From contig OX359245.1 of NCBI GenBank assembly GCA_947179485.1, forward strand, positions 50,207,067 through 50,271,066: a DNA stretch of 64,000 nucleotides, written 5' to 3'. Under the pieces are notes generated by a model. It saw only the letters and a program-made list of their open reading frames with translations, did not search any database and was not told the origin of the DNA. This stretch comes from Allacma fusca. Taxonomy: Eukaryota > Arthropoda > Collembola > Symphypleona > Sminthuridae. Shown piece by piece: positions 10,876-61,874 of this stretch (its first letter is position 1; every line of letters begins with the position of its first letter). Position numbers and translations under genes: made by a program.

Positions 10876-11074
10876 GGGTTTTCTGGAGGAAAAGTGAGGA
10901 AAGAGTAGGAAAATTTGGGCAGGGCCTCCGGCAGAGGCGGACGCCACAAAGATTTTTTGTAAGAGTTATTACACAGGAGCACACTCGCAGAGAGGTAAGG
11001 AGAACGCCTATATCCTAATTAACAAATTGAGAATATAGGGAACGCCGCACTTTCACCATGTTAAGTATTATTTG

Positions 11075-33534: not shown

Positions 33535-33860
33535 GACACGAATCTAACGACTAACGATCAGTCTCTAACGACTAACGACTAACGATCACTAACGACTAAC
33601 GATCAGTCTCTAACGACTAACGACTAACGATCACTAACGACTAACGATCACTAACGACTAACGACTAACGATCACTCTCTAACGACTTACGATCACTCTC
33701 TAACGACTAACGATCACTCTCTAACGACTAACGATCACTCTCTAACGACTAACGATCACTCTCTAACGACTTACGATCACTCTCTAACGACTAACGATCA
33801 CTCTCTAACGACTAACGATCACTCTCTAACGACTAACGATCACTCTCTAACGACTTACGA
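33535..33860 (+). repeat. TAACGACTAACGATCACTC minisatellite
   Basis: About 320 bp of tandem units built from CTAACGACTAACGATCA with variable CTCT spacers. It forms the left arm of the MULE-like element, with the inverse array at about 35515-35660. Confidence 0.9.
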
Positions 33861-33998
33861 TTTCCCATAACGACTATAGATAACTCTCGAACGAGTAACA
33901 ATGAGTATCTAACGGGCAACCAGGAGTCTCTGACGACTAGCAATGAGTTTCTAACGGGTAACAATGAATTTCTAACGACTAACAATGAGTGTAATGAC

Positions 33999-34184
33999 TG
34001 TGGCTCCTTTTCGGGACGGGACGTCCCGAGGTTGACGGGACCGGGATCGGGACAGTTTCGGGACAAAATGTTTGTCCCCATGTTATTTCGGGACTGAATC
34101 GGGTCGAACTTTTTTGTCTCGAGGAATTCGGGACGGGACAAAATTGTCGACGTGACAAAAACATTGTCCCAAGTAGAAGCCCTA
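33999..34184. mobile_element. Small hAT MITE nested in the left arm
   Basis: Ends TGTGGCTCC and complement TAGGGCTTC, with 8-bp near-duplication GTAATGAC and GTAACGAC on the flanks. The 186-bp body is made of GGGAC and GTCCC words, giving strong self-complementarity. Confidence 0.65.
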
Positions 34185-34199
34185 GTAACGACTAACAAC

Positions 34200-35057
34200 T
34201 AGTGTTTCTTGTCAATTGAAAGTTAACCGCAATTACTAGTTATACATTGCAATTACAAAAACATTAAATACTCGCAATTACCGGTTAAGCACAACTGAAA
34301 TTGCAAGAAATTCAATTACATTACAAGTGCTTGCACTGCAAAAAGTTGCAATTTAAAAAACATTTTTCAAGTTAATTGCAACTTGCAACCGTTTCTAATT
34401 TGAGTGCAAAATTTTATAAAATGTATCAATAAGTCACTGCGCTCTAATAACATAATAAACACGTGTATTGTCTCAGCGGGAGTAATTACTGTACTGACTG
34501 TTCAATTTCGTCGGTGAAGGGGCAAATTGTTGAACTGAATTTTTGATAAGCTGATCAAAATGTTCCCATTGGCACAAAATTATAGAAAATATTTTAAGGA
34601 TTGTAAAGACATGTTGAACGATGAAATTTTACAATATTTTAGCATTGGAAGCTTTGAGGGAAGGCAATTTCATTTGTGCATCTCTGTTTCATTGTGCATT
34701 GCGTCCAGATTATTTTCTTTAATACGCTTTGTTTAATTTAGTGAAACAGCATGCATATCATTTTGCTACCAATCAATGCACAGATCATTTTGTCTCTTCC
34801 CCGACGATTTATAGTGTGTATCAGTTAACTTGCAATTGTACTTGTCGGTGCAATTACTTGCAAATGTTCTTGCAGTTGCCTTACCAACTACAAGTAACTT
34901 ATGAACTAATTGCAAGTTTAACTTCGGTTATTTGCATGATTTAATTGCCGCATTTTAGCAAGTACCAGTTACAGTATTACTCGTACTTGCATTAACAATT
35001 TCTAAATTGTAATTGCAAGTTCGGGTATTCCCAATACTTGCACCGACGGAAACACTA
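34200..35057. mobile_element. hAT MITE nested in the MULE-like element
   Basis: Inverted ends TAGTGTTTC, flanked by the 8-bp target duplication CTAACAAC at 34192-34199 and 35058-35065. The duplicated site is itself a minisatellite word of the host element. The body is rich in TTGCAATTAC words. It contains a foldback element at 34509-34806. Confidence 0.8.
34509..34806. mobile_element. Foldback MITE, CGTCGGTGAAG family (member 1)
   Basis: Begins CGTCGGTGAAGGGGCAAA and ends with the complement of CGTCGGGGAAGAGACAAAAT. The same family is seen as a longer copy at 53681-54525. It is non-coding. Confidence 0.7.
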
Positions 35058-35514
35058 CTAACAACTAGTCTCAGGAATAACAATGACATTTGATTAATGA
35101 TAACCCTATGACAACTACCGATCAGTCTACCGATCATAATACAACTACTAACAATCACACTTACTATTGCGCGAACAAATTTACTTAAACCCGACCATGA
35201 ATATCTCCAGTTCGTGGTCAAGTATAGCCCAGTACGTACCTACACGCGATCAAGTACTACGGTTCAAATAAATTATTATTACTTGAATTCGAACATGACT
35301 AGCAGATAAAGTCATATTCAAGAACATGAATACCGTGAGGTTACTCGAACAGTTATTATTTTGAAAACAATTACTCTAACTGAGAATATGAATTTATATG
35401 GTACATGCATACGATGAAATTCAGAAGTATAAATATATAGAAATGCCCGTATATCTTCGAGTGGCAAAATTTGAAGGACATATTATACGATATACAATAC
35501 TGATTGTTAGTAGC

Positions 35515-35665
35515 TAGAGAGTGATCGTAAGTCGTTAGAGACTGATCGTTAGTCGTTAGTGATCGTTAGTCGTTAGTCGTTAGTGATGGTTAGTCGTTAG
35601 TCGTTAGTCGTTAGTCGTTAGTCGTTAGTCGTTAGTCGTTAGTCGTTAGTCGTTAGTCGTTAGAT
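35515..35665 (-). repeat. Inverse GTTAGTCGTTAGTC minisatellite
   Basis: Tandem TTAGTCG units, the complement of the array at 33535-33860. It forms the right arm of the MULE-like element and is shorter and more uniform than the left arm. Confidence 0.9.
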
Positions 35666-37076
35666 TCGTGTCGTTAGGAATTAGGGTATGCCAAAAAATA
35701 ACGCTGAAGCCGTCCACTGTACTGACGATAGCTCACACTTTTAGCGGAAACGAAATCATCAACACGCTAAATTCAGGCAAACTGTACTGAATTTATAAGT
35801 GCAGATGGGGGCAACATGCATTCCGCTATGGAATATATGAGTTCCAAATACTGCCCTCACACTCTCGCTCAATGACGGTAATCTATTTTTATGGAACTCG
35901 GCCTCACAAACTGAGTTCTGCTCAGAATGCCGCGGGTCTCACACTCGGCACTCAAATTTTGAGTTCTGAGTGCGAGTTGAATGCGAGCTTTGCTCTCAAA
36001 ACTCGTGAGTGCGCCGATCAGTGATGCAAAAATAAATAATATTGTGATGTACTAAAAAGCTAATGCATTTTTGCAGTGAAAATTCTTAACACATTTTTCA
36101 TCATCCATTGGTATCAATTCGGATTATTTCGGATATACACGGGTCGGATCGGATAATGCACTTATTCGATACGAAATTTTTGGATCGGAAACGGATGAAT
36201 AAAATGGTTATCCTAATCCGTAACGGTCGGATCGGATAATAAGAAAATTTATCCGTAAATTTCGGTTCGGATCGGATTCGGATCGAATACTCGATTTATC
36301 CGATGGAAGCCTTAGATGCTTGCATAGGACAATTGACAAACTTATTGTTTGTTTGCTCAGAGACAATAATTCATTAGTGCACGCGGATATTTGTAATAGG
36401 AAATATCATTCGAATGCTAAATGGGGGAAGCTGGCGAAAATATTACTTTCAGGTATATTTTCGGAAACATATATTTTAGTATATTTCGGGAAACATATGT
36501 TTTAGTAAATTTTGGGAAACATATATTTTAGAAAATTTTAGGTACTCGAATTTTAGGAATACTGGCTCGAATTGTCTGAACAAGGCAAGGGAATGTGACA
36601 AAACAGTTGAATCCTTCTTATTGTATTGACGGTTTTATGGCTATGAAAGAAACCATACGTACCTACAGTGTCCGTGAAAATTGGTGCAGTCAAAGTTGAT
36701 GCTGATAATGTAGTTTCCTCTTTTCTGTAATCTTAAATCTTTCAAGTACTGACTTCGTGTAAAATTAAGAGCCGTGTTCACACGGTAAGCTGATAGCCAC
36801 AGAAAGTGTATTGAAAAAATTCGAAATCAATTTTGCATAAACTCTGGTCTATTGTATTTGGTATAAAAGCGCATAATCTCGTAACATGATTTAAGCATCC
36901 CATTGCAGTGAAACTCAAGCAACAAAACAGTGCTCGGCACGAGTACGAAAAATTGGTACCCGTGCCCGTATATGTACCCAATGTGCGGGTATTGCAATAT
37001 CTGGTATCGGTACCTTTAGCCATACCCGAGTATCCGGCTTCAAATTTTTCATACCGGTACCCGCAATGTGAACTGA

Positions 37077-37372
37077 AACAATGTAGATGTACCCGCATTG
37101 TACTCGCACCCGAAAGGTACTCGAAAATTGCACCCATACTCGGATATCTCCTCTTACTCCTTTGTTCCGAACGGTGTCAGTTCAAATGTTCCGATGTCCC
37201 GACAGCCGGAACGGAACCGGGAACAATATTATTTGTAGGTTTCGGAACGGAACGGAATTTCCTACGGAACAAAAATTTTGAACACATTGGAAGCTCTAAA
37301 ACAATGTACATGTACCCGCATTGTACTCGCACCCGAAAGGTACTCGAAAATTGCACCCATACTCGGATATCT
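37077..37372. repeat. MITE flanked by 75-bp direct repeats
   Basis: Bases 37077-37151 recur at 37298-37372 almost unchanged. Between them lies about 145 bp of self-complementary sequence rich in GTTCCG and CGGAAC words. Copy 2 has only one version of the 75-bp block (about 60400-60474) and lacks the insert. The arrangement resembles an insertion with an oversized target duplication, or insertion followed by repair synthesis. Confidence 0.7.
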
Positions 37373-37603
37373 CAGTGTCATACCCATACTCGTACCCGGG
37401 TACGTTATCCACGTTTGTTTATATTCAACAGTACGTTACATGTAAGTAATAATGTATGACACCATAGTGTGTAATTTTGACAAGCTATACAGCGGTATTT
37501 GATTTTGCATGCTTCAATTATTGAGGAATAGAAAAAACTAGAAGCGTTTTCGATTAGAATTAAAATTGATTTGCGCAATTACTTGCAGATCCATCAAACA
37601 TTA

Positions 37604-38661
37604 CCCACAGAAGTATATTAAAAATCAAAAGTACAATAGACTAGGTGAAGATCTTTAGAACAAATTGAATTACTACATATCATACTTGCAGCCGTTCAGT
37701 TCATAAAGTGGTAAACTGAACTGAACTAGCCCTTATTCTTATTGTTTTTGAATGAACTTGAACGAACTAGCTAAATGCAAACTTTTGATTGAATGAACTT
37801 GAATTGAACTCAGAAGAACTTGTTTTGAATGTGAACGAACGTTCATCATACGTTCAAGTGACGCAAATTGAACTGAATTGAGCTTAAGAATCAGGGTTTG
37901 AATATAAGTTCATATAATCATGAACACAAAACGAATATTATACAAAATATCTCTAAATTGTATGATTTTTTTTGTAATCTTAAAAGATAGCACCCAGGTT
38001 TTTGATAATACATTTCAATGACATTAAATTACAAATCAATCAAATTGCTTACATGTAAACAGATTTTTACATTCAAGAACGAGTATTCAGCACGTTTTGG
38101 CCGAAGTTATATGAATTAAAAATCCTAATAATTGTAAGCATAGTTATATGATTTATTAATTTAGAAGCGCTTGGCTTTTTCACATTGATTGTTTATCAGA
38201 AAGCTCAAATTCAAAACACCGGAGTTTTGAAACCAGTTATTTAATCAGTCATTTAGCAAAAAAATCTTGCTTCAGTCAAAGCTCCAAACTATAAAAATAA
38301 AAATAAATGTCACTTAAATATATCGTAATTTACACGCTAATGACAGATAAAGTGAACTGAACTGAACGGCCGAAAAGTATATAATGAATTGAATTGAACT
38401 TTGAAAAAATACTGCAAGAATTAACTGAACTGAACGTAACGACTGGAAAATACGCAGTGAATTGAATTGAACTAGGACAGGATTTTAACAAAGGGAAAAG
38501 AACTTAACTGAACGGCACGAAAAATTTTGGGATGTGAATGGAACTGAATTTGAACATTGGACCAAAACTGCAAGTATGCTACATATTATCAAATCTTTTA
38601 GTACGCCACACATACACAAAGTATTTACAAGTTGTAGAACCTGTCCCTTAACATAGAAAGA
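37604..38661 (+). pseudogene. Decayed exon copy, split by a MITE (copy 1)
   Basis: Starts after the acceptor CTTGCAG with ATCCATCAAAC and ends at GTGGAG before GTAAAATAAG, matching the exon block 26708-26536 on the other strand. A hAT MITE (37681-38578) interrupts it. The reading frame is lost by small changes. The gene of origin is unknown. Confidence 0.6.
37681..38578. mobile_element. hAT MITE in copy 1
   Basis: Perfect 11-bp inverted ends CATACTTGCAG and 8-bp target duplication CTACATAT at 37673-37680 and 38579-38586. Copy 2 has the empty site CTACATATTATC at about 60776. The interior is full of GAACTGAACTGAAC words. It is non-coding. Confidence 0.9.
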
Positions 38662-39801
38662 GTGGAGGTAAAATAAGTATTTCATTTCCCAAGGTTTAGT
38701 TTTGTGAAATTTCAAAAGTAAGGTTCCCTCCGCTATATTTAAAAACCGACAGAAGTTTCCAACGCACGGGCATAATGGTATGCAATTTATCCAAATGTCT
38801 TAATTCTCATCGTGTCTAAATACTTGGGTGTAATGGTTGCGGGTACGAGTAATTGACCCGGTTATAACCGTACCTGGCGGGTATATACCCATTTTCAAAT
38901 CCTTTTACCCGTACCCATACCAGTATCCGAAATATTGAGCCGACTAAAAGCGTACCCGGGTAGCACCCGAAATTGTTCGGGTAAACTAAATCGGTACCCA
39001 GGTAGTACCCATACCCATACTCATAACCGTTTACTCGAGTATTACCCATACCCGTACTGAGCACTGCAACAAAACCCACTATCTGTATCCAACTGCGTCA
39101 GTGCACTGTTTATTTTTCTTACAAACATACATATGCACATTTGAAAAAAAAATCTAAATGTATGGTTTTTGTGTGTACAACTAGCAAGATTGCACTATTA
39201 GCATATTTTGATGTTGAAATAAGGTTTAAGACGAGCCAACAAGGATAGGGCCGACTGTACCGAAGAGTTTCTGCACTACTGCTATGATATTATATTTCTT
39301 AAAGGAAGCGAGGGAGAACTAACTTTAAAAAACTCGTTAATAAGAATATTGACTTTTAAATTGTGTAAAACAATTTTGATAGCTCATTTATACTTCGGCA
39401 TGTTTTGCATTCTGTATTTAATCTTCCAGCTAGAATGACATCATTAAATAGCAAACCAAGAGTAGTGAAAAGCATAGCTATTGTTCTGAAACTTGTATGA
39501 ATGTTTTGCAGTGACCTTCCATAGCGTTGAGACTCCTGTCCGGACCAAAAGCTCTGTTCTGGTCCACACTGGTACCAACGTTTAGATGAATAAAAATGGT
39601 CTGTGTCAAATTTATACTGTACCAGCGAATCTGTTTCTTTTTGGACTAGACCATAATAATAATATAAGATAAGAGACCGTTCCTGTACAGGGAAGACGTC
39701 GGACCAAAGATAGGCCTTTTAATAACCCGAGCCTATATCCCGCCCATGCCAGTGCTAATCATGTGACCCTGCCTATCCGCCTAGAGTAAGAGGGTTGTAA
39801 T

Positions 39802-42800
39802 TAGTGATGTACAAGTCACGACTGACTGACTGCTTCAGCAAAGACTGACTGATGAAAATAACTTACTTTGGACTGAATCAAAATATTTGGAGTGAGACTG
39901 AGACTGACTGGGACTTAGAAGTTTATATATGAAGACTGATACGGACTCACAGTTGATATCATAACAATGAGAGACCGTACGACATCTCTATACGTAACAA
40001 AACACTGCTGCAGCAAGGTCTGCGCCGAAATACCACGTTTCGTAGCATGTTGTTGCATGCAACGGAAAAATTTCTACAAGGCATGTAGAAAAAACAATTC
40101 ACCTACATCTGCCCTACACGTTATTGCAATTCTAAATGAATTTGAAATATCTTCGTTCTGAAATATTTCACCAAAAACAAAAATGAGTTCACAAAATCGC
40201 CAAGTATTGAATTTAAGCAGCGAAGAGGAAACCGGTGATTTAGCCGAAACAGAGGGTCAAGTGTACGAAGAATTCTCTCTTCCCAATAAACGTGCTCGGC
40301 TGTCACGTAAGTACATAGCATGACTTATAATTAATGTGTAAATGTATTTATCAATGCTACAAAGTAAGAGAGCTGGTAGGAATTGAAATTTGGAAATTTG
40401 TACAAGTTATATATAAAATATTTTGTAGATTCCAAAAGGCTATCGCAAAGAACTCTTCAGGAATGTTTTGCTTCCCAGAGTCAGAAAGGTAAAACAAGCA
40501 GATAGGAACGAGCATACTTAGAACGTATTTTATTTTAACCATGATATTATATTATAGCTCCAACTGAAGATCCGGATGGTGCGTCAGAGCGATGTATAGA
40601 TTCTGCAGTAGTTAATGACTGTAAGTTTTTATAAAGGAGTAACATTAGTGAAGAATAAGGAATGTTCAATAATGGGAATTAGTTGTAAGTGCCGATACTT
40701 TTTGCAGTCGCTGATGAACCCAACAATATTGGTTCGACAGGTCGAGGCACAGAACCTGCAGTACCAAAGCCTAAAATTGCAAACTCGGCGGTTTGGAAAT
40801 ACTTTCACAAGCGAGCAAATTTAGGCCAAAGTGTTTGCAAGTATTGTGAAAAAGTTGTCCAATCGACTAATGCAACTAATGCGAAACGCCACCTGAAAAT
40901 CTGTCAGCCGGATAAACATGCAACAGTCGTCCTTGATGATAATAAATCCCGGAGCAAGTACACAGTTAAGCTTACGTCTTTGAGTTTTTCCAAATACTAT
41001 GAGGTAAATCATCCCAAACAGCTCAAATTTCGAAAAGAGCTAGCTGCGATAGTGTCCGGAACAACGATTACAGCCTCATCATTGTGTACCGAAGAAGTTC
41101 GAGAAGCTTTCCATGCTGCGGATCCAAAGCTGCGTGTACCACATCGAAGTACAATAAATAAGGACTCAAAAGCATTGGTGTCAGACAGTAAGATGAAAAT
41201 AATGAAAATGCTTAGAAACATCCCTCGGATGACAATTTCATCGGATATTTGGACCAAGCGTGGGCAGACAAGCAGTTATCTTGGGGTCACATCAACATTT
41301 TATCACCCGAAACTTGAAAGAAAAGTTAATGTGGTACTTGGAGTACAACAATTTGAAACAGTTACCCATAATGTAGATGATATTGTACGCGAAATGAGAA
41401 AGGTACTTGCCAAATTCGGAATTCAACCTCAGCAAGTATTCAGAGCAATGACAGATGGAGCGTCAAACATGATATGCAGTCATCGGAAAGAAAATGAAAT
41501 ATTTGTGAGAGAAGAGCAATATGAGAGGAGATTGGAAGAAGAGTATGATTCTATGGACTCGGAACCTGAAGTTACCAGTGAAAGGCAATCAACTCTTATT
41601 GGTGCTGTTGCAGACAGTGAAAGTTCAATAATCGAAAACTCAATGAATCCGTGCTACCGTCGACTAACTTGCTTCATTCATACTACCCTTAATTGCCTGA
41701 AGATATTTGACGAAGACACCAGAATGAAACCATTTATCAAACGAGTGAAAGAATTAGTATCTATATTTAAGCATTCTCATGTGCTTACTGAAGATTTGAT
41801 TAAACTTTGCAATGTTGGTCTGATTTCGTTTATAGATACACGATGGAATTATGTTTACAATGTTTTGGCCAGACTGTCAAGAGTTAAAATATCCATTGAG
41901 AAGGTTTTGAAAGCACATAAGAAGCATGTGTATTTACTTAGTGGCGATGACTGGAATCTCCTCGATAATACTGTCGAATTTCTAAAACTCTTCAGCGATT
42001 GCACAAATATGTCCTCCAAAGAGAAAGAAGCGGTTTCATCGGAAGTAATTGTAACAATTATTTCCATGTATAATCATCTTGATTCTTATGAAAACCACGA
42101 TTATCTTGGCAGCGTCGCTAAAGAAATAAAAACCAACATAAAAACAAAATTTTCACACTTCTTTTATGACAAGCCAGGCGCAAAAGAATTTGAAGGAACG
42201 TATCTTGTGGCAACATTATTGGACCCTCGATATAGATTGATATTGCCTACCTCGCAGCGATTACTTGCGCGTGAATTTCTCTTAAAAGAATATAATCTAG
42301 TAGCACCATCGCCACCGCCAAATGATTCTGAACGGCTGCAAAGATTTAATGAACGACCTCATACTTCTCAAGCTAAGTTTCCTTTCCGTAAGTTCCGTTA
42401 ACGTTTTCATAGTCAAGGTACATTTATTATGGACGGATGTGTTCATCCTCATGTACTGTCATAAAACTCAATTATAATTAATTTTTGTATAATTATTGCA
42501 GTTCAGCAAATGAAGGAAGCGTTTGTACGTGAAATGGACGACTCCATACCTGGGGGCAATAAATTTCAAGCTGAGCTTGACAGGTACATCAACTGCACCG
42601 AATACGACTCCTTGCTTGAATCTGACGACGTGTTTAAGTTCTGGTCAAATAAACAGGATGAATATCCTTTATTGAGTCCTTTGGCACTTGATTACATTTC
42701 AATTCCCCTCATCATCAGCTAACGTCGAACGAGTATTTTCCCGTGCTGGTATACTTACTATCGGAATCAATAATCGACTTTCCGATGAAAATCTGGAGGA

Positions 42801-44216
42801 TAAGGTTTTGTACAGCAAGAATCGTAAGTTGTTGAAGGATTTAGAATTCAGTGATGACTAGAATCTGTACTAATTAGTGCAATCAAATTTAAGGCACAAG
42901 AAATTTGACAGTACATTTAAAAGGTACATTAAATGTTCGTTCGCATTTACAAATGAGAAATTACTTTTACTTATGTTTATTTTAGACGTGTAAAGATGTA
43001 TGTAAGATGTGTGTCAGGTTTATGAGATGGCAGTACATTTCTAAGGTAAATAAAATGTCCGTTTATACTAGATTAGATTTTAATTTTAAATTCCTTGATT
43101 CTTACTGACGGAAAAATGAAGCCTACAAGAAATACCAAGTTTTTCCACCAATTCTACACTCAAAGGGAAACAAGTATTTAAATAAATAACGGGTTTAAAA
43201 AGCATTGACCGTTGTACATGGGAATTTGTAAACTGTTGTGTTAGACATATACGTGATTAGAAGAATGGTGTAATAAAAATGTGGGTCCCTTTTCTCATTC
43301 CCATAATTCCACCAAGGGTTCTATTTTGAATGGACAGTGAGTATAATGCCGTAACGGATCTGTTTAAAATTTATTCTGGTTCTGAAGGTCAACAAGAGGC
43401 GGTACTACATTAGGAATGAGAAAATTGTATGGCTGTAGAAACTATGGCTAATGTAATAATTATTATTAATTACTTGAAAATAAAATAAATAAATAAGAAC
43501 TAATATTAAATATTATGGGGAATGTTCCCCTGCCAATAATAACAGCTTGTTGTTACAGAATTGATGGGGAACGAGATTGTATAAAGTTATCAAAGGAGTG
43601 AGATTAAAGCGGTTGTTTACAAAAAACGGCAGTCTCCCTAAAGCTTTCGAAAATTATTAAGGAGCCTAGAAATGTACATAGGAAACGCTTTGGGATAAAG
43701 AATTTAGGGTCAGTTGGGCTTGAAATTCATTTATTGGACGTACCCATGCTAATTAAATCTATACTCATACTCTCGTGGAAGAAAATAATCCACAGGTATA
43801 GTTTCTCCTGCTTAGTAAGTACTTTTAAATTAAGCGTGTCCATCATTTTAGTGCATTTTTTGAATACCAAAACACAATTATGTTGGCTCAAATATTTTGC
43901 TTTCAATAATCTCGTTTACCACGTTGAAATTTAAGGCAATCAAAGGAGACCGAAATTCTTGTCATTCGAATACTTAAGCACAATATTTAAGCCAACATGA
44001 TTGTGTTTTGGTATGTAAAAAATGTAAAAATGTAAAAATATGTAAAAGGCGCAATTACAAGACTGACTGACTAGACTGAGTCCGAAACTTTATAAAGTAT
44101 GGACTGACTTTGACTCAGCATTAACGAGTCCTGGAAGGAAAAAAACTGACTTTAGTAAGGGGTTGGAGAGACTGTGTACGACTTGGACTGAACTTTCACG
44201 ACTTTGTACAACACTA
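39802..44216 (+). mobile_element. hAT transposon, nearly intact, nested in the larger hAT
   Basis: Ends TAGTGATGTACAAGTC and, complement of the right, TAGTGTTGTACAAAGTC. The 8-bp target duplication GTTGTAAT lies at 39794-39801 and 44217-44224. It is 4,415 bp long. Subterminal zones at both ends are full of GACTGACTG words. It encodes a spliced transposase (40183-42861). Near 43862-44018 a pair of complementary arms (CCAAAACACAATTATGTTGG and its partner) forms a hairpin of about 160 bp, possibly a tiny MITE. Confidence 0.92.
40183..42861 (+). CDS. hAT transposase with BED zinc finger (one frameshift)
   Basis: Five exons join in frame: 40183-40306, 40429-40488, 40558-40620, 40708-42387 and 42502-42861, all with GT-AG introns, about 760 residues. 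The N terminus is acidic (LSSEEETGD). A BED-type zinc finger follows (CKYCEK through RHLKIC) and binds the transposon ends. The RNase-H-like catalytic core follows (MTISSDIWTKRGQTSSYLG, FRAMTDGASNM, CFIHTTLNCL, FIDTRWNYV). The hAT dimerisation tail carries SSANVERVFSRAG. The frame shifts by one base near 42706, just before SSANVERVFS; everything else is open. Either this copy is very recently dead or the shift is a sequencing or assembly error. Confidence 0.88.
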
Positions 44217-44224
44217 GTTGTAAT

Positions 44225-45122
44225 TACAACTCCCGCCTTTTAAGTGGCTGGAGAAGCTATCAGACTTCTCGCAACCCACCCCAGCCTAGGGAGCATTCAA
44301 CAATTATGTCATCAAATTTTGCCTAATTTAGGCCCCGTACCCCCCCTTAAATCACTACACGTGATTATCGAGCGAGCCCCCCACCCCTATAATGACATCA
44401 TTCACTGATATCCTTGGTTGCACGTATTGACCGCTAAAATTGAAATTGAGACTGCACTAACGGCTGCTCTAAAGAAATTTATAACTTCTAACTTCAAAAT
44501 TATGACTAAAAAGCAGTAAAAAATAACTACGTAAATTCCCTAAACCTACGGCATACAGAACTTCGAAAAATACATTTCGCGCGTATGACATTACTATTTT
44601 ACTCAATGTTATTTATGAATTAAGCAGCGTCAATATGTGACGTCATTATCCGCTGGACCCCTCTACCCTCTACGTCATTGTTTGTCAACATTTTTGGGGT
44701 CCCATCCCCCCTTTTCGTGGTGACGTAATATTTGAATGCTCCCCTATGCATCCAAAATAATGCCTGCCTAGACGGATAAGGGAAAGGCCAAACGTCCTAT
44801 AGCCTATATCCATTTGCCTAGATGAGCATAAGCCTATCTTGCCTACTTACAAATACACATCCAAACAATCGCCATTCCGTGTACACAGAAGTTCACCAGT
44901 TGATGGATTCCATTCCAATTCCAAGTCACACGTATGCATCTGTGTCCGATTGAGTTACTGGGACAAAAAAGTTTGCCAGATAAATAAAAAACATTTCACA
45001 ATTTGGTGTCACAATTCTCTCACATTCAATGTGAAAGAATAGCAAGCTTTTCGGTAGTAACAATAATTCGACAAAAATGTTTGTCTTAAATCCGAAAATA
45101 AATTTTCAAAACTTAACCCAGC
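44225..45122. other. Left subterminal region of the larger hAT
   Basis: Non-coding stretch between the nested hAT and the exonuclease pseudogene. It carries several GCCTA/TAGGC words (44283-44340 and 44750-44845) like those at the right end. It probably holds the promoter of the exonuclease gene. Confidence 0.5.
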
Positions 45123-46301
45123 ATGAGCGAACAACAAGCAGGTCCGAGTAAGAAAAAGCAAAAGTCCAATGAATACTTCCATGCTGTTAGGAAAAGCCAA
45201 ACGATTTTCGATCAGAGTGGACTTCCTCGTCCTCAGGAAGAGTATTCTGGCTTAAAATATCGAACTGGACAGATTAATGCTGGATGACTGGAATTAACAA
45301 AATCTCACTCGGATTTATTACCGGAACCAGTCCCGTTATTTATGTTAAATCCCAGATTTAGTTCAGCCGAACTTCAAAAGGAAAAAGATTTAAATTTTGG
45401 TGATCTAAGCCCCAAGTGGATTTTAAACAAGGTGGACTTCATGGACTTTTTGCAAAAAATCCGTCGCTGCTAAGAATTTTCTTTGGATACGGAGGGACAT
45501 AACAACGATTCTAAATACGGTGAGAACTGAGCAGAATACTACATTTATGCATTGACAATAAAGATTGGCTGAACTGTTTGGAAAAATTTGTAGGCCAATT
45601 TTTTATCACGCACAATTTTTGTATAGGATATATCGCCGTTTTACAAATTGGAACTTGGGAGTATGGAGATTTTATTCTTGGAGCATATGAATTTCACGAT
45701 GACATTGTGGAATTTCTCAAACCAATTCTCGAAGATCCGAATGTTCTGAAAGTCATTCACGGAGGAATGAATGACGTTTTATGGCTTCAACGAGATTTCG
45801 GGATCTTTTTGCGGAGGCCTCTTGACACTCAGATCATGCATGAAGTTCTTACTGGGGAAAGTAAAAACTCATTCAAGAATTTGGTTCGTCGGTATAAGCC
45901 CAACTTGGTCAACTTGTTGAAGGAGGAGACACTGTCAGATTGAAGGCTTCGACCGGGAAAAGGACTGAGTTCTGCACAAGAGATTTACGCAACATGCGAC
46001 GTTCATGTTCTATTAAGAATCATGGATCAATTACGCTTGGAGGTATGTTAGTAGTAGCTCCAAATTAAAAATTAATTTCGTTTGAATTTGTATTTTTAAA
46101 CCCTTAGCCTGGCTTTGATATCCCGTTATACAAGTTATGACAAGCTAGCTTGTCAATAAACGAATCAAAAACAATTATTCAGCAAACGGGATAGTTCAGC
46201 ATTTTAATAATGTAAGTTTATAGTTTCAGAGTAAGTGCTTTAGACGAATGCTGGAATCGTTTGAAAAGTTTGAAAATTACTTCAGAGGAAAACTTTTCAA
46301 G
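45123..46301 (+). pseudogene. Rrp6/EXOSC10-like DEDD exonuclease carried by hAT (decayed)
   Basis: The reading resembles the catalytic domain of Rrp6/EXOSC10, the nuclear exosome 3'-5' exonuclease. All three exonuclease motifs are legible: D-x-E in LDTEGHN (about 45486), Exo II in KVIHGGMNDVLWLQRDFGI, and Exo III in IYATCDVHVLLRIMDQLRLE. So the catalytic D, E, D, D and Y positions survive. The start MSEQQAGPSKKKQKSN is basic. Exon 1 (45123-46042) contains several stops and at least one frame change; an intron of 187 bp (46043-46229) follows, then an open exon 46230-46301. Because introns are present it is not a processed copy. It lies inside the hAT bounds, convergent with the transposase, which implies gene capture. 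Rrp6 HRDC sequences are not seen. Confidence 0.72.
46139..46154. repeat. Palindrome GACAAGCTAGCTTGTC, copy 1
   Basis: A perfect 16-bp palindrome inside the intron (46043-46229) of the exonuclease pseudogene. The same 16 bases recur at 48482, 49122 and 50035. Confidence 0.95.
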
Positions 46302-47005
46302 GTGCCCCAACCTACAGCAGCTCCAACAACAATATATTTGTATATAGTTTCAATAACATTACATGATGAATTTATTTAATTGTCCAGAGTGTTCCAAAAT
46401 CGAACTTCATTTTACCGAGTGTTCTAGTGATTAAAATCCTTTTTAAATTTGGTTCAACCTGACACTGCCACACAGCTTGAGGAGATAGCTTCTTTATTTT
46501 TAATAAATGTAATTATCCATGCAAACATTTGCTCATTCAGAATTTTCGAAGGAATTCTTTATTTTTGCATGTGAATGTAATTAGTGAGAAAAATTCTGCA
46601 ATAACGAAATGATACTTTGAATCAACAAATATTGTAAAATCAGCTTTTACCATAAAATCTCCACGATCTTGTGATGCAGGGATCCACCGTAGCTTCAGGA
46701 AGCTATTTCTGGGGTAAAATTGTCAGTAATTTAAGGATTAACGACGGGCCCCACGTAAACAATTTCGATGAAAAAATTTTTTCAGACCATAATAGGTACT
46801 TGGAAGATATTAAATAAAAATTAGGGAAATTGTTTGTATAAGTCTCATATGAAGTCTCATGAATTTCCTACAATTTTCCTAAAGCAATTCTTTGCCACTC
46901 CGTTCTTGACGATCTGGCGAATTGTTGAATCGTAAATTTTGCGGCTGAATCAATTAAAATTCAAAAAATTTGTAAAATACATCTGTTGAAACAAATTAGG
47001 AATTA
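46302..47005. other. Interior of the larger hAT, no gene seen
   Basis: AT-rich sequence between the exonuclease pseudogene and a minus-strand exon. It could include further decayed exonuclease exons, but I cannot recognise any. Confidence 0.35.
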
Positions 47006-47228
47006 AAAATGGAGTGTAGAACGGCTATTTTTAGTAAGTTCGGCTTGTCGGTTATGCAACCTCTCCACGTCAGTAATCATAGTGTACTGTTCAGAACTGC
47101 TATGAATAATCTTGGAAATGATTTCAGTAATTAATTGTTTCGACGTTTCGTACTCGTCGAAGCCTCTTAGATAATGTGGGAAATCGACTTCAACCTCTTC
47201 AAGAAGGTCAATGGCAATAATTTTCTGA
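47006..47228 (-). pseudogene. Unidentified exon inside the larger hAT
   Basis: The minus strand reads through as KIIAIDLLEEVEVDFPHYLR, then GFDEYETSKQLITEIISKII, then VERLHNRQAELTKNSR, ending at a stop. A TTTTTCAG acceptor precedes it. It lies downstream of the transposase stop in the same orientation. It may be a last exon of the transposase transcript or part of a third passenger gene. I do not recognise the family. Confidence 0.4.
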
Positions 47229-47959
47229 AAAATAAATACTTTGAAGGGTGGGTGGCTATCATACTTTATTTACAAATTATTGATTCTAAAAATATTTATA
47301 CAAGTGCATCGTTGTGGTAGCAAATTTCATAGGGATTAAAACTTCGGGGAGCTGAAAATCAGCGCAGGGTCAACATTGTGGTGTGAGGAGCTAACAGCGT
47401 GAGGTTAATTGAATGAAAGTTTATTGGCGTGGCAATTGTTTCTGAAATTTACGCCTAATATTAAATATGTGTAATTATATGTATGTTTCAACGCCGTACA
47501 AATTGCATGAATACTCTTCTGCATAACCATATTATATGTGATCTCACCTTCATTTGCACAAAATGAATTCTCAAAGTATTAACCAGATGATCTAACGTTC
47601 TTTAATATTCTCTATTTTATTGCACATACGGCTTATGATGTATCAAAATGAGTGTTCAATTTAATTCCTCAAATATATTTATTAAATGACAATTTTGCAT
47701 TCAGTTATTCAAAACCATTTAACGGCTTTTGGTTTGATAATCCCAATTAATTAATATTCTTCTTTTTCAATAATCAAAGCAATTATTGGTTCTTCAATTC
47801 TTTCTTAATACAGCAATTAAAAGTTTTAAAAATTCAAACAATCCAATACTAACCGTTTTACTAATCTTAACGTTTATAACTTTGTTGTGCACATTTGTAA
47901 AAATTTTGGACAAACGTTTTTGTCATTTTGCACCCTTTGAAATACTCAATTCATTTTTA
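47229..47959. other. Interior of the larger hAT, no gene seen
   Basis: Very AT-rich sequence between the unidentified exon and the end of the transposase pseudogene. No coding signal is seen. Confidence 0.35.
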
Positions 47960-48481
47960 CGAAACTCTCGGTAAATCAAAAGCCCCTCGATGGTCTTTGT
48001 CCCCAAACGGGCTCTCCTTGCTCTGTTAAGCGACCCGGTAATGGAGAAAACTCTCTATAGAAGAAGATGCCGGAAATCCTAGATATTGTTTCGCTAATTT
48101 CCGCAACATAGGGTACGTGTTCTCCTCCATTAGTTTTTGGTAGTAAGTGAGAGGGTTGGAATCTCCTGGGCAACGTTTTTGTTTTAAATATTCTTCTATT
48201 TCATCTTACAATTGAGATACTTCGGCATCGTTGTCGCTAGGAATAAAACTTGACAGAAAATCCATTTTGTTGCGTTTGGGTGAACTTCTTGCGTCAGTTT
48301 GTCCTGCTGGTACTTCGATAAGTTGCACAGCAGCAGTTTTGGACTTTTCTTTTAAATGTGTCGATACCAGTATATTTTTAACCCTTTCAACAGATGGTAC
48401 ACACTCCTTGAGCTTATATGTCTCTGGTAGTGGAACTGTAAATATTATAGTTTTTAGTTTAGCTTGAAGGATTTATTTATA

Positions 48482-48497
48482 GACAAGCTAGCTTGTC
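48482..48497. repeat. Palindrome GACAAGCTAGCTTGTC, copy 2
   Basis: Identical to the copy at 46139. It lies in the last recognised intron of the transposase pseudogene. Confidence 0.95.
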
Positions 48498-49121
48498 AAA
48501 AGTTGCAATTGTTTCTCATTACGTAATTGGATTATAATGAAGTTTTCCAAATACTTTTAAATGATGTAAGTTGCCAGCGTGGATCCAAAACCGTAACCAA
48601 TATGTACGCCTCATTCCCGAAAACTTCCCGTAGACACTTTCGGGCTCCTCGTCCGGAGTAATTGAATTGTTCTTGTTCGCCAAACCGTTCCGTTATTGTG
48701 AGACACAAACTAGTCCTAAGTACCGACATATATCCGTCTCCACACTGCACTGCTGCACATTATGTGCAATTAAAAAATTCCGTTAGTAAAATTGTGGTAA
48801 ATTAAATCCGTTTATGTAGTTTTGTTAATTTCATTATAAAGAATAGACCATACGTTTGTATGAGTAATTATGCCAAGAAGTACGGACGTTGATGTGACCC
48901 CATCCTCTTAAAGTTAATTGGTTAGATCTAAAAACGGAGTTAGCAGTTTACTCAGATGAACGAGGTCCTTATCCAGCTCAGGGGATATGAGATCTAGAAT
49001 TACCAAAATGTTCCTTCTCGATGGATCTGCATGTGCTTTCTCCAGAATGCTGTTTACACTCCCAATCAAGTTTTAATAACAATCATCAGTTAAAACTGCT
49101 TACATAAAAATAAAACTAATA

Positions 49122-49137
49122 GACAAGCTAGCTTGTC
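49122..49137. repeat. Palindrome GACAAGCTAGCTTGTC, copy 3
   Basis: Identical copy in the transposase intron 49050-49159, about 25 bp from its donor site. Confidence 0.95.
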
Positions 49138-50034
49138 ACAATAATAAAATTGTAAATACCTCAAGAAGACGCTTGAGGGAAAAATGAATGTCATTCCATC
49201 GCGTATCACCGATTTTGATTAGTCCTTTTGTCGTCAGTTCCACCTATTTAGAATGCCAGAACGACGACATGCTGAAAAACGCGGTCAACTTGTTGATGTA
49301 TGAAATTATTTGCTGGCACCGCGGATGTTTCTTCGGGCATTCTTTAACTACAAGCTGCAAGGCATGGTTTACACAACCTAATGGAATTAACTCTTGTTTG
49401 GACCAATCACATATATTTTCGTAACTTGCTTCGCATTCTTCCTCTAATGCAGTCGGGTTTTGGGCCTCGAATTCGTCCTCATTGAAGTCAGTATATTCCT
49501 CCCAATTAATATCATCCTCTACTTGCTCTTCATCATGGTCTGATAAATCATCTTCATCATGGATGGCATCCTGGTGGATATCCTCTGGCTTTCCAAAAGC
49601 TCCTACATCCCCTTGTGCATTGTCCGTCATGATAAATCCGATCTAAAAAAGACGATTCTCGCCTGGAAGAAATTTGATTTTATTGTATTACACAAATTAA
49701 TTATTTTTACCTGGTCAGGTTTGATGCCATGGTTTAAAGAGATTTCATCCAAGAATGCTTTGCGAATGTTTTCTGCTTGCTTTCGCTCTGAAAACTCGAA
49801 GAATCCGATCGTGAAGTTATTAATTTGCCAATTGTTGTCAATGAAATGCACCTTAATACCCATCACGTGTTTGTTGCTTCGGCTTTTCCACAAGGCAAAG
49901 GAGAAATGTATTGTTGAATCTCTGACTTTGTGAAGGCGACTTGCGTTTATCTTTGCCAACCTGATTATTTCGAAATGTATTGAAAATTATCATAGGTTAT
50001 GTATTTAAATAATGAAGGCAATTTATTTTTTACG

Positions 50035-50050
50035 GACAAGCTAGCTTGTC
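50035..50050. repeat. Palindrome GACAAGCTAGCTTGTC, copy 4
   Basis: Identical copy in the transposase intron 49961-50081, about 30 bp from the donor. Confidence 0.95.
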
Positions 50051-50676
50051 AATTCAAACGAAAATAAACCAGAAAATAAACCTTTTGGTTTCCTGGCTGA
50101 TTCGGCGACTGAGTTGTCTTCTTGAAATCAGCCGGACGGATGAGTTCAGGTGTCTCGTAAATTTCATGAATATAGGATTATCGACGAGATTTAGAGGCAT
50201 ACCACCTATGCAAACCAAGTCCATTAGGTCGGTGACAAACTGAATTTGCTTTTGATTACACTGTTTATAGGAATTTTTATTTGAGAACCTTTCAATCTTC
50301 TTTTCATGAACAAGATATATATTTTTTCTGCAGCTGCCTTTCGTCGATACGAGAAGTTTGACTTGGGTATTACATGGACACGATACTGTTCAAATTTAAG
50401 ACAAATGAATTCTATTGGCAAAATGTCCATTTCATGGCAATCAGATTGTGCTAAGACTTTTATCATTTAATATGAAAGTTGAATCCCATTATTACCAAAT
50501 GATCGATGCGGCTATTCCAGCCATTCTTGGAGTTGTAGATCCTCGGCTCAGCGTTTTTCGTCATGCAATCGTCATGCAAACACTTTATTGTGATTCCTGT
50601 CTTTGAAACCTCGTGGATTTCAAAGTATTTCTGTAAATCTTCAGGAACTTTAATAGGTTCATTTATGGACATTTTG

Positions 50677-50692
50677 GACAAACTAGTTTGTC
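50677..50692. promoter_or_regulatory. Variant palindrome GACAAACTAGTTTGTC before transposase ATG
   Basis: A perfect palindrome differing from the others by one symmetric base pair. It sits 4 bp upstream of the transposase ATG at 50672, so it could act in transcription or translation of the transposase, or as a transposase-binding site. Confidence 0.7.
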
Positions 50693-51290
50693 ATAAAATG
50701 GTAATAAATATTGTGGTCGAATACTCAATACCGTCCACTTCGAAGGTTTTAATTCTGTAGCTAGTAGCTATAGTAATACAATTCCAGGTTCCACGGTCAC
50801 AGAAAGAAATAATAGAGCAGTTCAAATCAGAATTTAAACAGAACAAAATGGAGAACGTGATATTTCCTTTTTTTGAAACGAAGTCTATGCCATCGATGTA
50901 TACGTTAAATGTACATCATTCATAAAGTACAAAGAAACTCATGGTGGCCGCTAGTCTGAAAACAATCGCATGAAGATTGTAGATATAGCTCAAGTGTATA
51001 TAGTACTCTCGAGCACAACTCGTAATCAAGCAAGTATGTAACCCTACCTTAAAGGATATCACATGCAGATCCCTTCCCATTAACTTCCCAGCCTAGTGAA
51101 TGTAATGTAACATGTGCCTATGTTGCACAGTTTCCCATATACAATTGTGAATGAGCCTACAATTAGCTCACTAGCCCATACACTACGTCTTGCCCATCCT
51201 AGATCCGTGCCTATATTTTCCCATTTTCTGAAGCATCCTAAAAATTTTGCCTATAATCGAGCCTAGATCTAGGCAAGGGGCCCACCTTTG
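50693..51290. other. Right subterminal region of the larger hAT
   Basis: Presumed transposase promoter region and right end. GCCTA words are dense at 51085-51280, ending with the palindrome GCCTAGATCTAGGC at 51263-51276, just inside the terminal inverted repeat. Confidence 0.55.
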
Positions 51291-51315
51291 CGTCGGACTA
51301 TTCGTCGAACCGATT

Positions 51316-54610: not shown

Positions 54611-55001
54611 CTAGCGAAATTCGAATTGCAACTGTGATTATGGTGTCACTCTTGAAAGTGAGTTTAAAATTTCTTGTTGACAAAATGTTTTCCGTAATAC
54701 ACCTCAACAAATTCAAAATACCCTGCTAAATAAAAGGTCAACGAATTTGAAAATTCCTGCTGAAAATATTTGTTTTCCGTAAAACACCTCAACAATTTCG
54801 AAAATCCCTGTTTGTAATCCCGTTTGAAAATTTCAAGACTGCAAACCTAAATCACTCAATTCACAAAATAATAATAAAATTAAAACAATCGGACCAGATA
54901 AACATGCTCCGCTCCTTCCAGACCATTTTGTCCAAACATTAGTGGTGGTGATTTAATTGACGCAAAATGCCAACCAATCAGCATTTATTCCTTGTTATAT
55001 A

Positions 55002-55793
55002 CAGTCGACTCTCCTTATAACGACATCAATAAATCTCCCAAAAAGTGACGTTATAAGGGAACGACGTTATAGAGGCACATCATATAAATAACGGTTTAAT
55101 TGCAAATTTAGTTGAATTGGAGTCATGTTTTGTTTCATGTATGTAGCACATACTATATGTCTACGTAGAATGAGAATAAAAATGAATAATATTAATAAAT
55201 AAATAATAATATTTTTCGAAGTTTCTCACGCCACAAACACCTTCAAAAACAAAGGTCGGGATTGAATAAAGTGTTTTCTGAATCTCAATAAGACACTTCT
55301 CAGAACATTTACAAAAGTTTTCAAACAGTGAAAATTGTAATTCTGTTATAACTATGAATGCCTGTTCTTTACTGGATACGAAAATAAATCTAAAAGCTTG
55401 GAAATGTGGATTTTCCTGGATGGGTCTTAATCAATGTCTTTAACCACGCTTGAACATGTATTTACATTAACACGTTCCTTCCAGTCTTTTTTAACGTCGC
55501 GACAATGTAAGCCAATGCAATTATAGTGAAACAAGAATAAAAATAACTTTAAAATTACAGCACTAGTATGTTATTTAGCTAAGTTTGGCGCGTTGTAACG
55601 TCAACATGACTTTATAAGGGTACGCTTTTCACCCTACGGCTACACAAAAAGCGACTTTATAAAAGAACTGACGTTATAACGAGTGACGCTATAAAGGTAG
55701 AAATTATCATATAATGTAGCTTGGGAGGAACCCAGGATGACTTTATAGGGAGAGTGACTCTATAGGGAGCGACGCTATAAGGAGAGTCGACTG
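55002..55793. mobile_element. Tc1/pogo-like MITE in copy 2
   Basis: Ends CAGTCGACTCTCCTTATAAC and, as complement of the right, CAGTCGACTCTCCTTATAGC, with a TA target duplication. Copy 1 has the empty site TATATATTAAAATATG at 27464-27479. The TA duplication and CAGT ends fit the Tc1/mariner superfamily, pogo/Tigger-like. The interior repeats ACGTTATAA words. No transposase is seen. Confidence 0.88.
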
Positions 55794-56130
55794 TATTAAA
55801 ATATGTACCTTAAATAAACTCATTTGGCTGACGTTCCTGGGATTACTAAACGGGACCCCATTTTTTTAAATCACTTAACATTGTTATCCATTTTCGGCAA
55901 TTCTTCACCAACGCCAGCTCCTAAGGGAATTTTGACAATTCAGGGAAAAAATCCCTAAAAGTGAGGAATCGTTTATTTTCTTCTGCCTCAAAAAGTATTT
56001 CAATCGCCATCATCCCTTATATGTGTTAAGCGACAAGAGAAATGTAGATAAAAATATGTATATGCCGACAATAATGTACATAGTACAATATAACAACACA
56101 CGTGCCAATGACAAAATCTCAAAAAGGTGG

Positions 56131-59625: not shown

Positions 59626-59758
59626 TGTAGCGGGTATTGCGTTCAAAATCTAGCTGTAAATTTTAAATGTCAGCACATCAAGGTATTACTCTACAGTACG
59701 TAGTATATGTTGAAATCACTAGTTTGTGTCAGTATCTGTATACTTAAAACATTTATGT

Positions 59759-59774
59759 GATGCTTTGATGTTTG
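59759..59774. other. Probable hAT excision footprint
   Basis: Copy 2 reads GATGCTTT then GATGTTTG where copy 1 carries GATGCTTG on each side of the hAT-like element 32132-36314. Two adjoining target copies with a change at the junction are the usual scar after hAT excision. Confidence 0.65.
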
Positions 59775-61874
59775 CATAGGACAATTGACAGTTTTATTGT
59801 TTGTTTGCTTAGAGACAATAATTCATTAATGCACTCGGATATTTGTAATAGGAAATATCATTCGAATGCTAAATGGGGGAATTTAGCGAAAATATTGCTT
59901 TCAGGTATATTTTGGGAAACATATATTTTAGTAAATTTTAGGTACTCGAATTTTAGGAATACTGGCTCGAAATGTCTGAACAAGGCAAGGGAATGTGACA
60001 AAACAGTTGAATCCTTCTTATTGTACTGACGGTTTTATGGCTATGAAAGAAACCATACGTACCTACAGTGTCCGTGAAAATTGGTGCAGTCAAAGTTGAT
60101 GCTGATTATGTAGTTTCCTCTTTTCTGTAATCTTAAATCTTTCAAGTACTGACTTCGTGTAAAATTAAGAGCCGTGTTCACACGGTAAGCCGATAGCCAC
60201 GGAAAGCGTATTGCAAAAATTCGAAATCAATTTTCTTTAAACTCTGGTCTATTGTATTTGGTATAAAAGCGCATAATCTCGTAACATGATTTAAGCATCC
60301 CATTGCAGTGAAACTCAAGCAACAAAACAGTGCTCGGCACGAGTACGAAAAATTGGTATTATACTTCAAATTTTTCATACCGGTACCCGCAATGTGAACT
60401 GAAACAATGTACATGTACCCGCATTGTACTCTCACCCGAAAGGTACTCGAAAATTGCACCCATACTCGGATATCTCAGTGTCATAACCATACTCGTACCC
60501 GGGTATGTTATCCACGTTTGTTTATATGCAACAGTACGCTACATGTAAGTAATAATGTATGACACCATAGTGTGTAATTTTGACAAGCTATACAGCGGTA
60601 TTTGATTTTGCATGCTTCAATTATTGAGGAATAGAAAAAACTAGAAGCGTTTTCGATTAGAATTAAAATTGACTTGCGCAATTACTTGCAGATCCATCAA
60701 ACATTACCCACAGAAGTATATTAAAAATCAAAAGTACAATAGACTAGGTGAAGATCTTTAGAACAAATTGAATTACTACATATTATCACATCTTTTAGTA
60801 CGCCACACATACACAAAGTATTTACAAGTTGTAGAACCTTTCCCTTAACATAGAAAGAGTGGAGGTAAAATAAATATTGCATTTCCCAAGGTTTATTTTT
60901 GTGAAATTTCAAAAGTAAGGTTCCCTCCGCTATATTTAAAAACCGACAGAAGTTTCCAACGCACGGGCATAATCGTATGCAATTTATCCAAATGTCTTAA
61001 TTCTCATCGTGTCTAAATACTCGGGTGTAATGGTTGCGGGTACGAGTAATTGACCCGGTTATAACCGTACCTGGCGGGTATATACCCATTTTCAAATCCT
61101 TTTACCCGTACCCATACCAGTATCCGAAATATTGAGCCGACTAAAAGCGTACTCGGGTAGCACCCGAAATTGGGTAAACTAAATCGGTACCCAGGTAGTA
61201 CCCATACCCGTACTCATACCCGTTTACTCGAGTATTACCCATACCCGTACTGAGCACTGCAACAAAACTCACTATCTATATCCACCTGCGTCAGTGCAGT
61301 TTATTTTTCTTACAAATATACATATGCACATTTGAAAAAAAATCTAAATGTATGGTTTTTGTGTGTACAACTAACAAGATTGCACTATTAGCATATTATA
61401 ATGTTGAAATAAGGTTAAAGGCGAGCCAACAAGGATAGGCCCGACTTTATCGAAGAGTTTCTGCACTACTGCCATGCTATTATATTTCTTAAAGGAAGCG
61501 AGGGAGAACTAACTTTAAGAGACTCGTTAATAAGAATATTGACTTTTAAATTGTGTACAACAATTTTGATAGCTCATTTATACTTCGGCGTGTTTTGCAT
61601 TTTGTATTTAATCCAGCTAGAATGACATCATTAAATAGCAAGAGGAGTGAAAAGCATAACTAATGTTCTGAAACGTGTATGAATGTTTTGCAGTGACCTT
61701 GCATAGCGTTGCGACTCCTGTCCGGACCAAAAGCTCTGCTCTGGTCCACACTGGTACCAACTTTTAGATGAATTAAAATGGTCTGTGTCAAATTTATACT
61801 GTACCAGCGAATCTGTTTCTTTTTGGACTAGACCATTAATAAGACACCATTCCTGTACAAGGAAGACGTCGGAC
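59775..61874. other. Copy 2 spacer, no intact gene
   Basis: Matches 36323-39704 of copy 1. It contains the GTACCCG-word repeats (60325-60510 and 61015-61260) and the decayed exon block at about 60693-60862. Short frames are not conserved with copy 1. Confidence 0.55.
60693..60862 (+). pseudogene. Decayed exon copy (copy 2)
   Basis: Uninterrupted version of 37604-38661: CTTGCAG acceptor, ATCCATCAAAC start, and GTGGAG before GTAAAATAAA. It matches the exon block 26708-26536. Stops interrupt the frame. Confidence 0.6.

Follow-up and report, generated by a model that had tools for sequence, protein, structure and literature searches.

The window analyzed here, a stretch of 64,000 nucleotides from the springtail Allacma fusca, contains a transposon of the hAT superfamily that carries two broken genes facing each other, one for a transposase and one for an exonuclease resembling Rrp6/EXOSC10 of the nuclear RNA exosome (coordinates in Table 1). 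An earlier note on this DNA had fixed the bounds of the element by inverted ends, an 8-bp target site duplication (TSD) and an empty site at 61867, and all three can be read in the window. The ends are CAAAGATAGGCC at 39705-39716 on the plus strand and CAAAGGTGGGCC at 51279-51290 on the minus strand; these two are the only perfect matches to the end motif CAAAGNTNGGCC in the window. The motif alone is insufficient as proof, because five matches are found when one mismatch is allowed, against 2.4 expected. The empty site derives from a segmental duplication in several pieces (window 27103-39704 and 54635-62139), whose genes are presumably GMC-oxidoreductase-like. The long plus-strand hAT open reading frame (ORF) belongs to a nested, unrelated hAT and not to the outer element. 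The element in the window is no longer functional, but the transposon lineage from which it comes has two convergent genes.

The nuclease gene lies on the plus strand and the multi-exon transposase gene of the outer element on the minus strand, in the convergent arrangement that had been described. The nuclease retains the DEDDy motif residues, and exons 1 to 3 can be read (splice sites by eye), in agreement with the claim of exonuclease motifs and at least one intron. PF01612 matches window 45524-45943 (1.5e-16), and window 45626-46045 is 64% identical over 140 amino acids (aa) to the open nuclease of a relative on contig C10. In-frame stops lie at 45285, 45471 and 45941, exon 3 is a remnant, and the later exons of the C10 nuclease were not found in the window copy. 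The description of the passenger as a whole nuclease therefore holds for the relatives and fails for the window copy, which is broken and truncated. The roles that the earlier note suggested for it, in evading RNA surveillance or in element replication, are speculative. By tblastn, the pieces of the window transposase are 45-74% identical to the C10 transposase. That the nuclease came in with the transposon, as the earlier note had it, is upheld by the recurrence of the same convergent pair in relatives. A separate insertion of the nuclease within the element was considered and rejected: no further duplication was seen around the gene, and the inner insertions seen in the outer element, the nested hAT and a piece resembling a miniature inverted-repeat transposable element (MITE), lie to its left. 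A 2572-bp deletion derivative at C8:16.47M, which has both family ends, the duplication ATCTGCGT and nuclease exon 1 inside, also counts against it.

The family to which the window element belongs, family A, has further members in the 393 Mb of genome searched (contigs labelled C1, C5, C8, C9, C10 and C12). Both genes are open in the C10 copy: the transposase has 7 exons and 730 aa, and nuclease exons 1-4 give 493 aa, with exon 5 taken from the annotated protein P0001. Splice sites in C10 were read manually, and P0001 agrees with the reading for the nuclease except around exons 1-2. Two annotated A. fusca proteins correspond to the C10 and C9 copies. In P0001, 442 of the 474 residues, in three blocks, agree letter for letter with the C10 nuclease, and the remaining residues are accounted for by splice choices and the last exon. 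The C9 copy has a stop in the nuclease and a frame-shifted transposase, and a right end was looked for there and not found. Pieces of both genes in convergent order are present at C5:52.45M and C1:55.03M, the nuclease start lies near one end at C5:0.999M and C8:50.47M, and C8:15.28M is a further match in the genome protein search. The nuclease is thus carried by the C10 and C9 copies, in part by those at C5:52.45M and C1:55.03M, and by a second hAT family and a non-hAT family; these copies at other loci and in other families exclude a single-locus accident. Between the window and C10, the proportions of synonymous (pS) and nonsynonymous (pN) differences are 0.84 and 0.26 for the nuclease (269 codons) and 0.80 and 0.22 for the transposase (689 codons, a few possibly from the nested hAT). 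Synonymous saturation at such low pN indicates that both genes were retained together under constraint. The ratio of nonsynonymous to synonymous rates (dN/dS) between C9 and C10 is about 0.46 for the nuclease and about 0.35 for the transposase.

Family B, represented by a 6884-bp hAT, shares the convergent layout; its nuclease is about 32% identical to that of family A, and its transposase pieces are 26-38% identical. Two more copies match this reference element at 98.9% and 99.5-99.6% identity, and TSDs can be read on both sides in two of the three copies (one of them GCGTACAA). Within family B, the nuclease of a subfamily designated B2 (C10:56.25M, protein P0011) shows 59% identity. The hAT hallmark of an 8-bp TSD with short inverted ends is seen in the window (CGTCGGAC), in C10 (GGTGCAAT), in the deletion derivative and in family B (CCCAGATA as well as GCGTACAA). 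The hAT C-terminal dimerization domain PF05699 is matched by the transposases of C10 (4.9e-15) and family B (3.7e-13); Pfam also finds a BED zinc finger in family B (2.4e-7), and the family A transposase has no Pfam zf-BED match.

In family C, the nuclease occupies one strand and a putative transposase the other, again convergently. The putative transposase matches DUF4218 (1.4e-4) and Transposase_21 (tnp2; 0.061), both under the cut-off; Transposase_21 was not matched by the longer 399-aa family C ORF, and a hAT transposase query gave no match in the element. The family is thus non-hAT, and we tentatively regard it as CMC (CACTA/Mirage/Chapaev)-like. Over the 3.8 kb compared, a second copy shows 99.9% identity. 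For a third the value is about 97-98% in the parts compared; an internal stretch of 4.6 kb is missing from it, so that it retains the nuclease without the transposase part. In another copy, at C5:44.06M, both the nuclease and the transposase pieces are 98% identical. A 4.4-kb element at C8:21.24M, whose ends are related, carries the nuclease without a transposase ORF of at least 110 aa, and two additional loci have near-identical palindrome spacing. The elements at L062 (884-5302) and L063 are nuclease-bearing with no transposase ORF of at least 110 aa, and have in common a stretch of a small ORF (about 130 aa). Between the two genes of the family C element, at L038 (3578-3644), is a perfect inverted repeat whose arms of 33 bp are separated by a single nucleotide.

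Each family has its own short palindrome. The family A unit is GACAAN-N4-N'TTGTC with fixed spacing; its sixth pair is A-T, G-C or T-A and is paired in 21 of the 21 sites listed, and the sites are near-perfectly two-fold symmetric, with a CTAG centre that is mostly symmetric. Nine copies are spread across the outer window element. The C10 copy has them ahead of each gene, in 7 of its 10 introns and also where the transposase gene ends. All nine window sites have C10 counterparts, five of them identical at 16 of 16 positions and four at 13-14 of 16, while the flanks of corresponding sites align at 38-68% (mean for unrelated pieces, 47%). The 16-mer GACAAGCTAGCTTGTC has 12 exact sites in the 393 Mb, four each in the window, C9 and C10 elements, and its reversed control has none. 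None of the family palindrome types occurs in the nested nuclease-less hAT, the sole nuclease-less control, and family palindromes are absent from the rest of the window. A tandem minisatellite some 2 kb to the left of the C9 element (L005 3544-3915) is made of units such as GACAGNTTAGTTTGTC, similar to the palindrome of family A.

Seven family B hairpins enclose the hexamer TCTAGT in perfectly paired arms, which are 6-13 bp long and vary in sequence by site. They lie before both genes, in three of eight introns and after both genes, and degenerate hairpins in two more introns bring the intron count to five of eight. No TCTAGT-loop hairpin appeared in 200 shuffles, and about 81 kb of DNA neighbouring family B has no CTAG-centred hairpin. 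Five sites correspond by gene position between B and B2. At the pre-nuclease site, both arms show a paired change between B and B2, CAAAAC/GTTTTG to CAAAGC/GCTTTG, and the post-transposase site shows a paired change at the outermost pair. In family C, the core is CAACACACATGTGTGTTG, with outer arms that vary yet mostly pair. This 18-mer has 46 exact sites genome-wide in ten clusters, and its reversed control has none. Nine clusters (45 sites) match the nuclease: eight (42 sites) coincide with matches of the protein search, of which three are weak (E about 0.002) and one of these was confirmed at 1.9e-47, and the ninth (3 sites) has a nuclease by tblastn. The tenth is a single site.

Table 1. 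Features of the window element and of reference copies in related families
Feature	Location	Strand	Remarks
Left TSD of outer hAT	39697..39704	.	CGTCGGAC; single copy at empty site
Outer hAT transposon, family A	39705..51290	.	11586 bp with the nested insertions; bounded by terminal inverted repeats and an 8-bp TSD; empty site known
Nested, unrelated hAT	39802..44216	+	ORF 40689-42401 (zf-BED); own TSD GTTGTAAT at 39794-39801 and 44217-44224
MITE-like insertion	44289..44743	.	inverted ends of 26 bp, 85% complementary; CTA at either side
Degenerate palindrome	44962..44977		161 bp before nuclease ATG; has C10 counterpart
Palindrome GACAAAAATGTTTGTC	45070..45085		53 bp before nuclease ATG (52 bp in C10)
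Broken Rrp6-like DEDDy exonuclease gene	45123..46318	+	exon 1 45123-45519, exon 2 45627-46042
Degenerate palindrome	45554..45569		nuclease intron 1
Palindrome GACAAGCTAGCTTGTC	46139..46154		nuclease intron 2
Nuclease exon 3 remnant	about 46230-46318	+	breaks off near 46318, by eye
Palindrome GACAAACGTTTTTGTC	47909..47924		transposase 3' end
Broken multi-exon hAT transposase gene of outer element	47926..50672	-	tblastn with open C10 transposase
Palindrome GACAAGCTAGCTTGTC	48482..48497		transposase intron 6
Palindrome GACAAGCTAGCTTGTC	49122..49137		transposase intron 4
Palindrome GACAAGCTAGCTTGTC	50035..50050		transposase intron 2
Palindrome GACAAACTAGTTTGTC	50677..50692		just before transposase ATG
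Right TSD of outer hAT	51291..51298	.	CGTCGGAC
Empty target site	61867..61874	.	tandem-duplicated locus; single CGTCGGAC between both flanks
C10 copy, family A	C10:56695239-56705388		10150 bp; ends CAAACATGGGCC/GGCCCATCTTTG; duplication GGTGCAAT
Reference element, family B	C8:25823173-25830056		6884-bp hAT; ends CACTGCTGCCC; duplication CCCAGATA
Element of family C	C12:21702029-21710796		8768 bp; ends CCCACACCATGG; 2-bp duplication TA

Elsewhere in the window, ORFs of 1580 and 908 aa at 3710-10965 on the minus strand, which we take to be a Gypsy-like long terminal repeat retrotransposon, have direct repeats on both sides (1077-2486 and 11075-12481) that are 99.8-100% identical, with two halves in permuted order. 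Paired genes in inverted orientation at 14853-16243 and 23558-25023 are about 67% identical in DNA and presumably chemoreceptor-like.

By type, the element nuclease belongs with the DEDDy enzymes Rrp6 and RNase D. It has a zinc knuckle and a possible HRDC-like region, to which family A adds two CCCH fingers. In the C10 protein, Pfam finds PF01612 (5.3e-33) and CCCH fingers; the CCHC knuckle was read by eye, and the second CCCH finger lies in exon 5. The residues D122, E124, D182, Y253 and D257 are invariant among three sequences (families A and B and amphioxus EXOSC10). HRDC scores fall below the 23.8-bit cut-off in the family B exon (23.5), P0011 (16.8) and family C (13.8), and Pfam gives no HRDC match in the family A nuclease; PMC2NT (PF08066) is not matched in the C10 nuclease or P0011. 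The closest solved chains to P0001 are EXOSC10/Rrp6, and its CCCH finger region resembles CPSF30. An AlphaFold2 model of P0011 (mean pLDDT, 60; per ten-residue block, 69-92 over residues 81-190 and 62-81 over 191-280) has its best Protein Data Bank (PDB) matches in Rrp6, with the Nibbler and Exd1 exonucleases ranked below. The element nuclease is a predicted 3'-5' exonuclease of the nuclear-exosome type.

When the element nucleases were placed in a tree with host EXOSC10 (C12:11292108-11293669), they stood apart from the EXOSC10 proteins. The six form one group (87/86, not starred; 60/88 in a first tree, of which the second omitted four long or odd rows, namely, L036, Theileria and two RNase D), and the seven EXOSC10-type rows lie on the opposite side of a 99/99 branch. 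A clade of the family A nuclease with host EXOSC10 was rejected (p-AU 0.00016), and with it recent capture from that gene. A viral source was also discarded: none of 61 pattern matches in viral contigs, a set that may omit records very near the window's genome, was a relative by tblastn. Among 5.8 billion proteins, no close relative beyond A. fusca was found by a search that requires shared 5-residue words and that distant relatives in other springtails may escape; the remaining matches were distant exosome or RNase D proteins. The transposase protein search scored the best 7992 candidates by shared words. Introns 1 and 2 are at matching places in families A, B and C (by eye), and the knuckle is common to all. 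Two hAT families and one non-hAT family of this genome share one nuclease lineage and one kind of palindrome layout.

Exonuclease-like domain matches with open frames of 539-561 aa occur at C8:42062297 (L036), C10:51162562, C1:27530404 and C5:52206359. L036, the sole one read, has a CCHC knuckle and looks catalytically degenerate; such frames are possibly another mobile nuclease lineage. An Rrp6/RNase D-like gene at C1:60852464 (L037) groups with the metagenome protein P0014 (99/98, 100/99) and not with EXOSC10.

To our knowledge, the well-known hAT members encode the transposase only. Hermes, Ac and Tol2 resemble the elements here in their 8-bp duplication, short inverted ends and C-terminal dimerization domain, and in the BED finger for family B; the elements here have, in addition, a second convergent gene and internal palindromes. 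Rrp6/EXOSC10 has the same DEDDy catalytic residues and fold and possibly shares the HRDC-like region after the exonuclease domain, whereas the element nuclease lies across the 99/99 branch, has no PMC2NT match, adds CCHC and (in family A) CCCH fingers and is mobile. Egalitarian, another exonuclease-fold protein, is a host transport adaptor. This DEDD-fold protein binds short RNA elements, and PDB titles describe structures of it in which the partner is an RNA stem-loop, in one case that of the I-factor; the element nuclease, in contrast, is transposon borne, and hairpins would be its proposed ligand. An accessory nuclease in a eukaryotic DNA transposon is a known kind of arrangement, since a DEDDh exonuclease is present in KolobokD transposons and different nucleases in further Kolobok lineages (KolobokE and KolobokP; PMC9587614). 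There, the KolobokD nuclease (similar to exuperantia, TREX and ERI1) accompanies a Kolobok transposase and TTAA targets, and its authors suggest that it trims DNA during transposition (PMC9587614). The present nuclease differs in being of the DEDDy Rrp6 type (Y253) with an HRDC-like region, zinc fingers and family palindromes, and the transposase in being hAT with an 8-bp TSD, or non-hAT. In a literature search conducted mainly on listings, no description was found of an Rrp6-type nuclease in hATs, of its sharing with a non-hAT family or of the palindrome layout.

The anatomy overall is beyond reasonable doubt: a family-specific palindrome or hairpin stands before both genes, in many introns and at the 3' ends. 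The best explanation as a whole would combine the two-gene anatomy with a nuclease and palindromes that form one module acting on the element's nucleic acid, probably RNA; we hold it tentatively, just short of calling it probable. The mechanism we propose is a shade more speculative still. A nuclear-exosome-type exoribonuclease with its own nucleic acid-binding fingers would target the palindrome-marked transcripts of its own element, so that transposase RNA would be limited or shaped, or shielded from host silencing. A recognized hairpin is favoured because the arms change while the loop stays constant, and RNA because of the exonuclease type and the zinc fingers; action on element transcripts would be the most likely mode, ahead of action at DNA sites.

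Several observations weigh against the proposal. The sites were selected for pairing, and the covariation and central pair counts are consequently partly circular; conservation at corresponding places, genome-wide co-location and the constant loop with changing arms are the fairer evidence for this reason. Some introns have no palindrome, three slightly imperfect family B hairpins lie in an intergenic minisatellite, and the C10 3'-end site falls within the last transposase codons. TCTAGT is on the plus strand at seven of seven family B sites regardless of gene direction; transposase intron 1 holds a site in reversed orientation, in B2 and, in degenerate form, in B. Action of the hairpins in the sense RNA of each gene would predict better folding of that strand. 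Across B and B2, the plus-strand hairpin is the stabler one at six of seven transposase sites, where plus is antisense, and at two of five nuclease sites, where plus is sense. This asymmetry across convergent genes suggests that a single DNA strand matters, or else a transcript spanning the whole element. G-U pairs, as a criterion of RNA versus DNA, gave a mixture of plus- and minus-strand wobbles that favours neither. The support for the element nuclease clade, finally, is moderate in both trees.

The main rival, unlikely in our estimation but the strongest of the competitors, holds that the palindromes work as duplex DNA, bound by the transposase (through its BED finger) or by some other dimeric protein of the element to control transcription or transposition, and that the nuclease trims DNA in transposition. 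The symmetry of the family A sites and the plus-strand orientation independent of gene direction would suit it, as would the cooperative binding of a quasi-palindromic repeat by Hermes BED domains (PMC10368747) and the trimming suggested for KolobokD (PMC9587614). However, family B arms vary by site and still pair, which sequence-specific dimer binding does not need; the sites lie in and around genes and not at the very ends; and the CCCH fingers and Rrp6 type favour RNA. A less probable alternative casts the nuclease as a counter-defence that would degrade or shorten the small RNAs of the host, or the precursors of these, the palindromes regulating expression only. Its models are MUT-7 and Nibbler, which have roles in silencing; Nibbler and Exd1 are among the fold matches, and the C8:21.24M element and the two loci with similar palindrome spacing would fit. 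Yet sequence and fold place Rrp6 above both, and family-specific palindromes would go unexplained. We consider it improbable, by a further step, that the palindromes arose as a by-product unconnected with the nuclease, such as splicing aids or insertion relics: they do lie mainly in untranslated regions and introns, where sequence is free, but they are conserved above their flanks, family specific, co-located with nuclease loci genome-wide and missing from the nested hAT (a single control) and the rest of the window. Least credible of all is a mere passenger, part of a host exonuclease that a hAT picked up a single time and that has no role, for although gene capture by hATs is known and the window copy is broken, this is already contradicted by the family comparison, with three families, protein constraint, open frames in young copies and the rejected EXOSC10 grouping.

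Cut-and-paste transposons are thought to require little beyond a transposase. The presence in several families of an exosome-like nuclease of their own together with family palindromes suggests a transposon-borne nucleic acid control module. A bolder version of the one-module reading, which we consider doubtful, is that unrelated DNA transposon superfamilies have in common a portable self-tagging module, an Rrp6-like nuclease with a family-specific hairpin code in most non-coding gaps, which would let the nuclease tell its own nucleic acid from that of the host and of rivals. If this is true, an element that has lost its transposase ORF and still keeps nuclease and palindromes would mean that the self-tagging module is selected in its own right. 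Should a palindrome-tied nuclease, long retained by hATs and by a non-hAT family, be confirmed, such elements would run their own nucleic acid control and offer a testable model of a DNA transposon that regulates or hides its transcripts, with young copies that make experiments possible.

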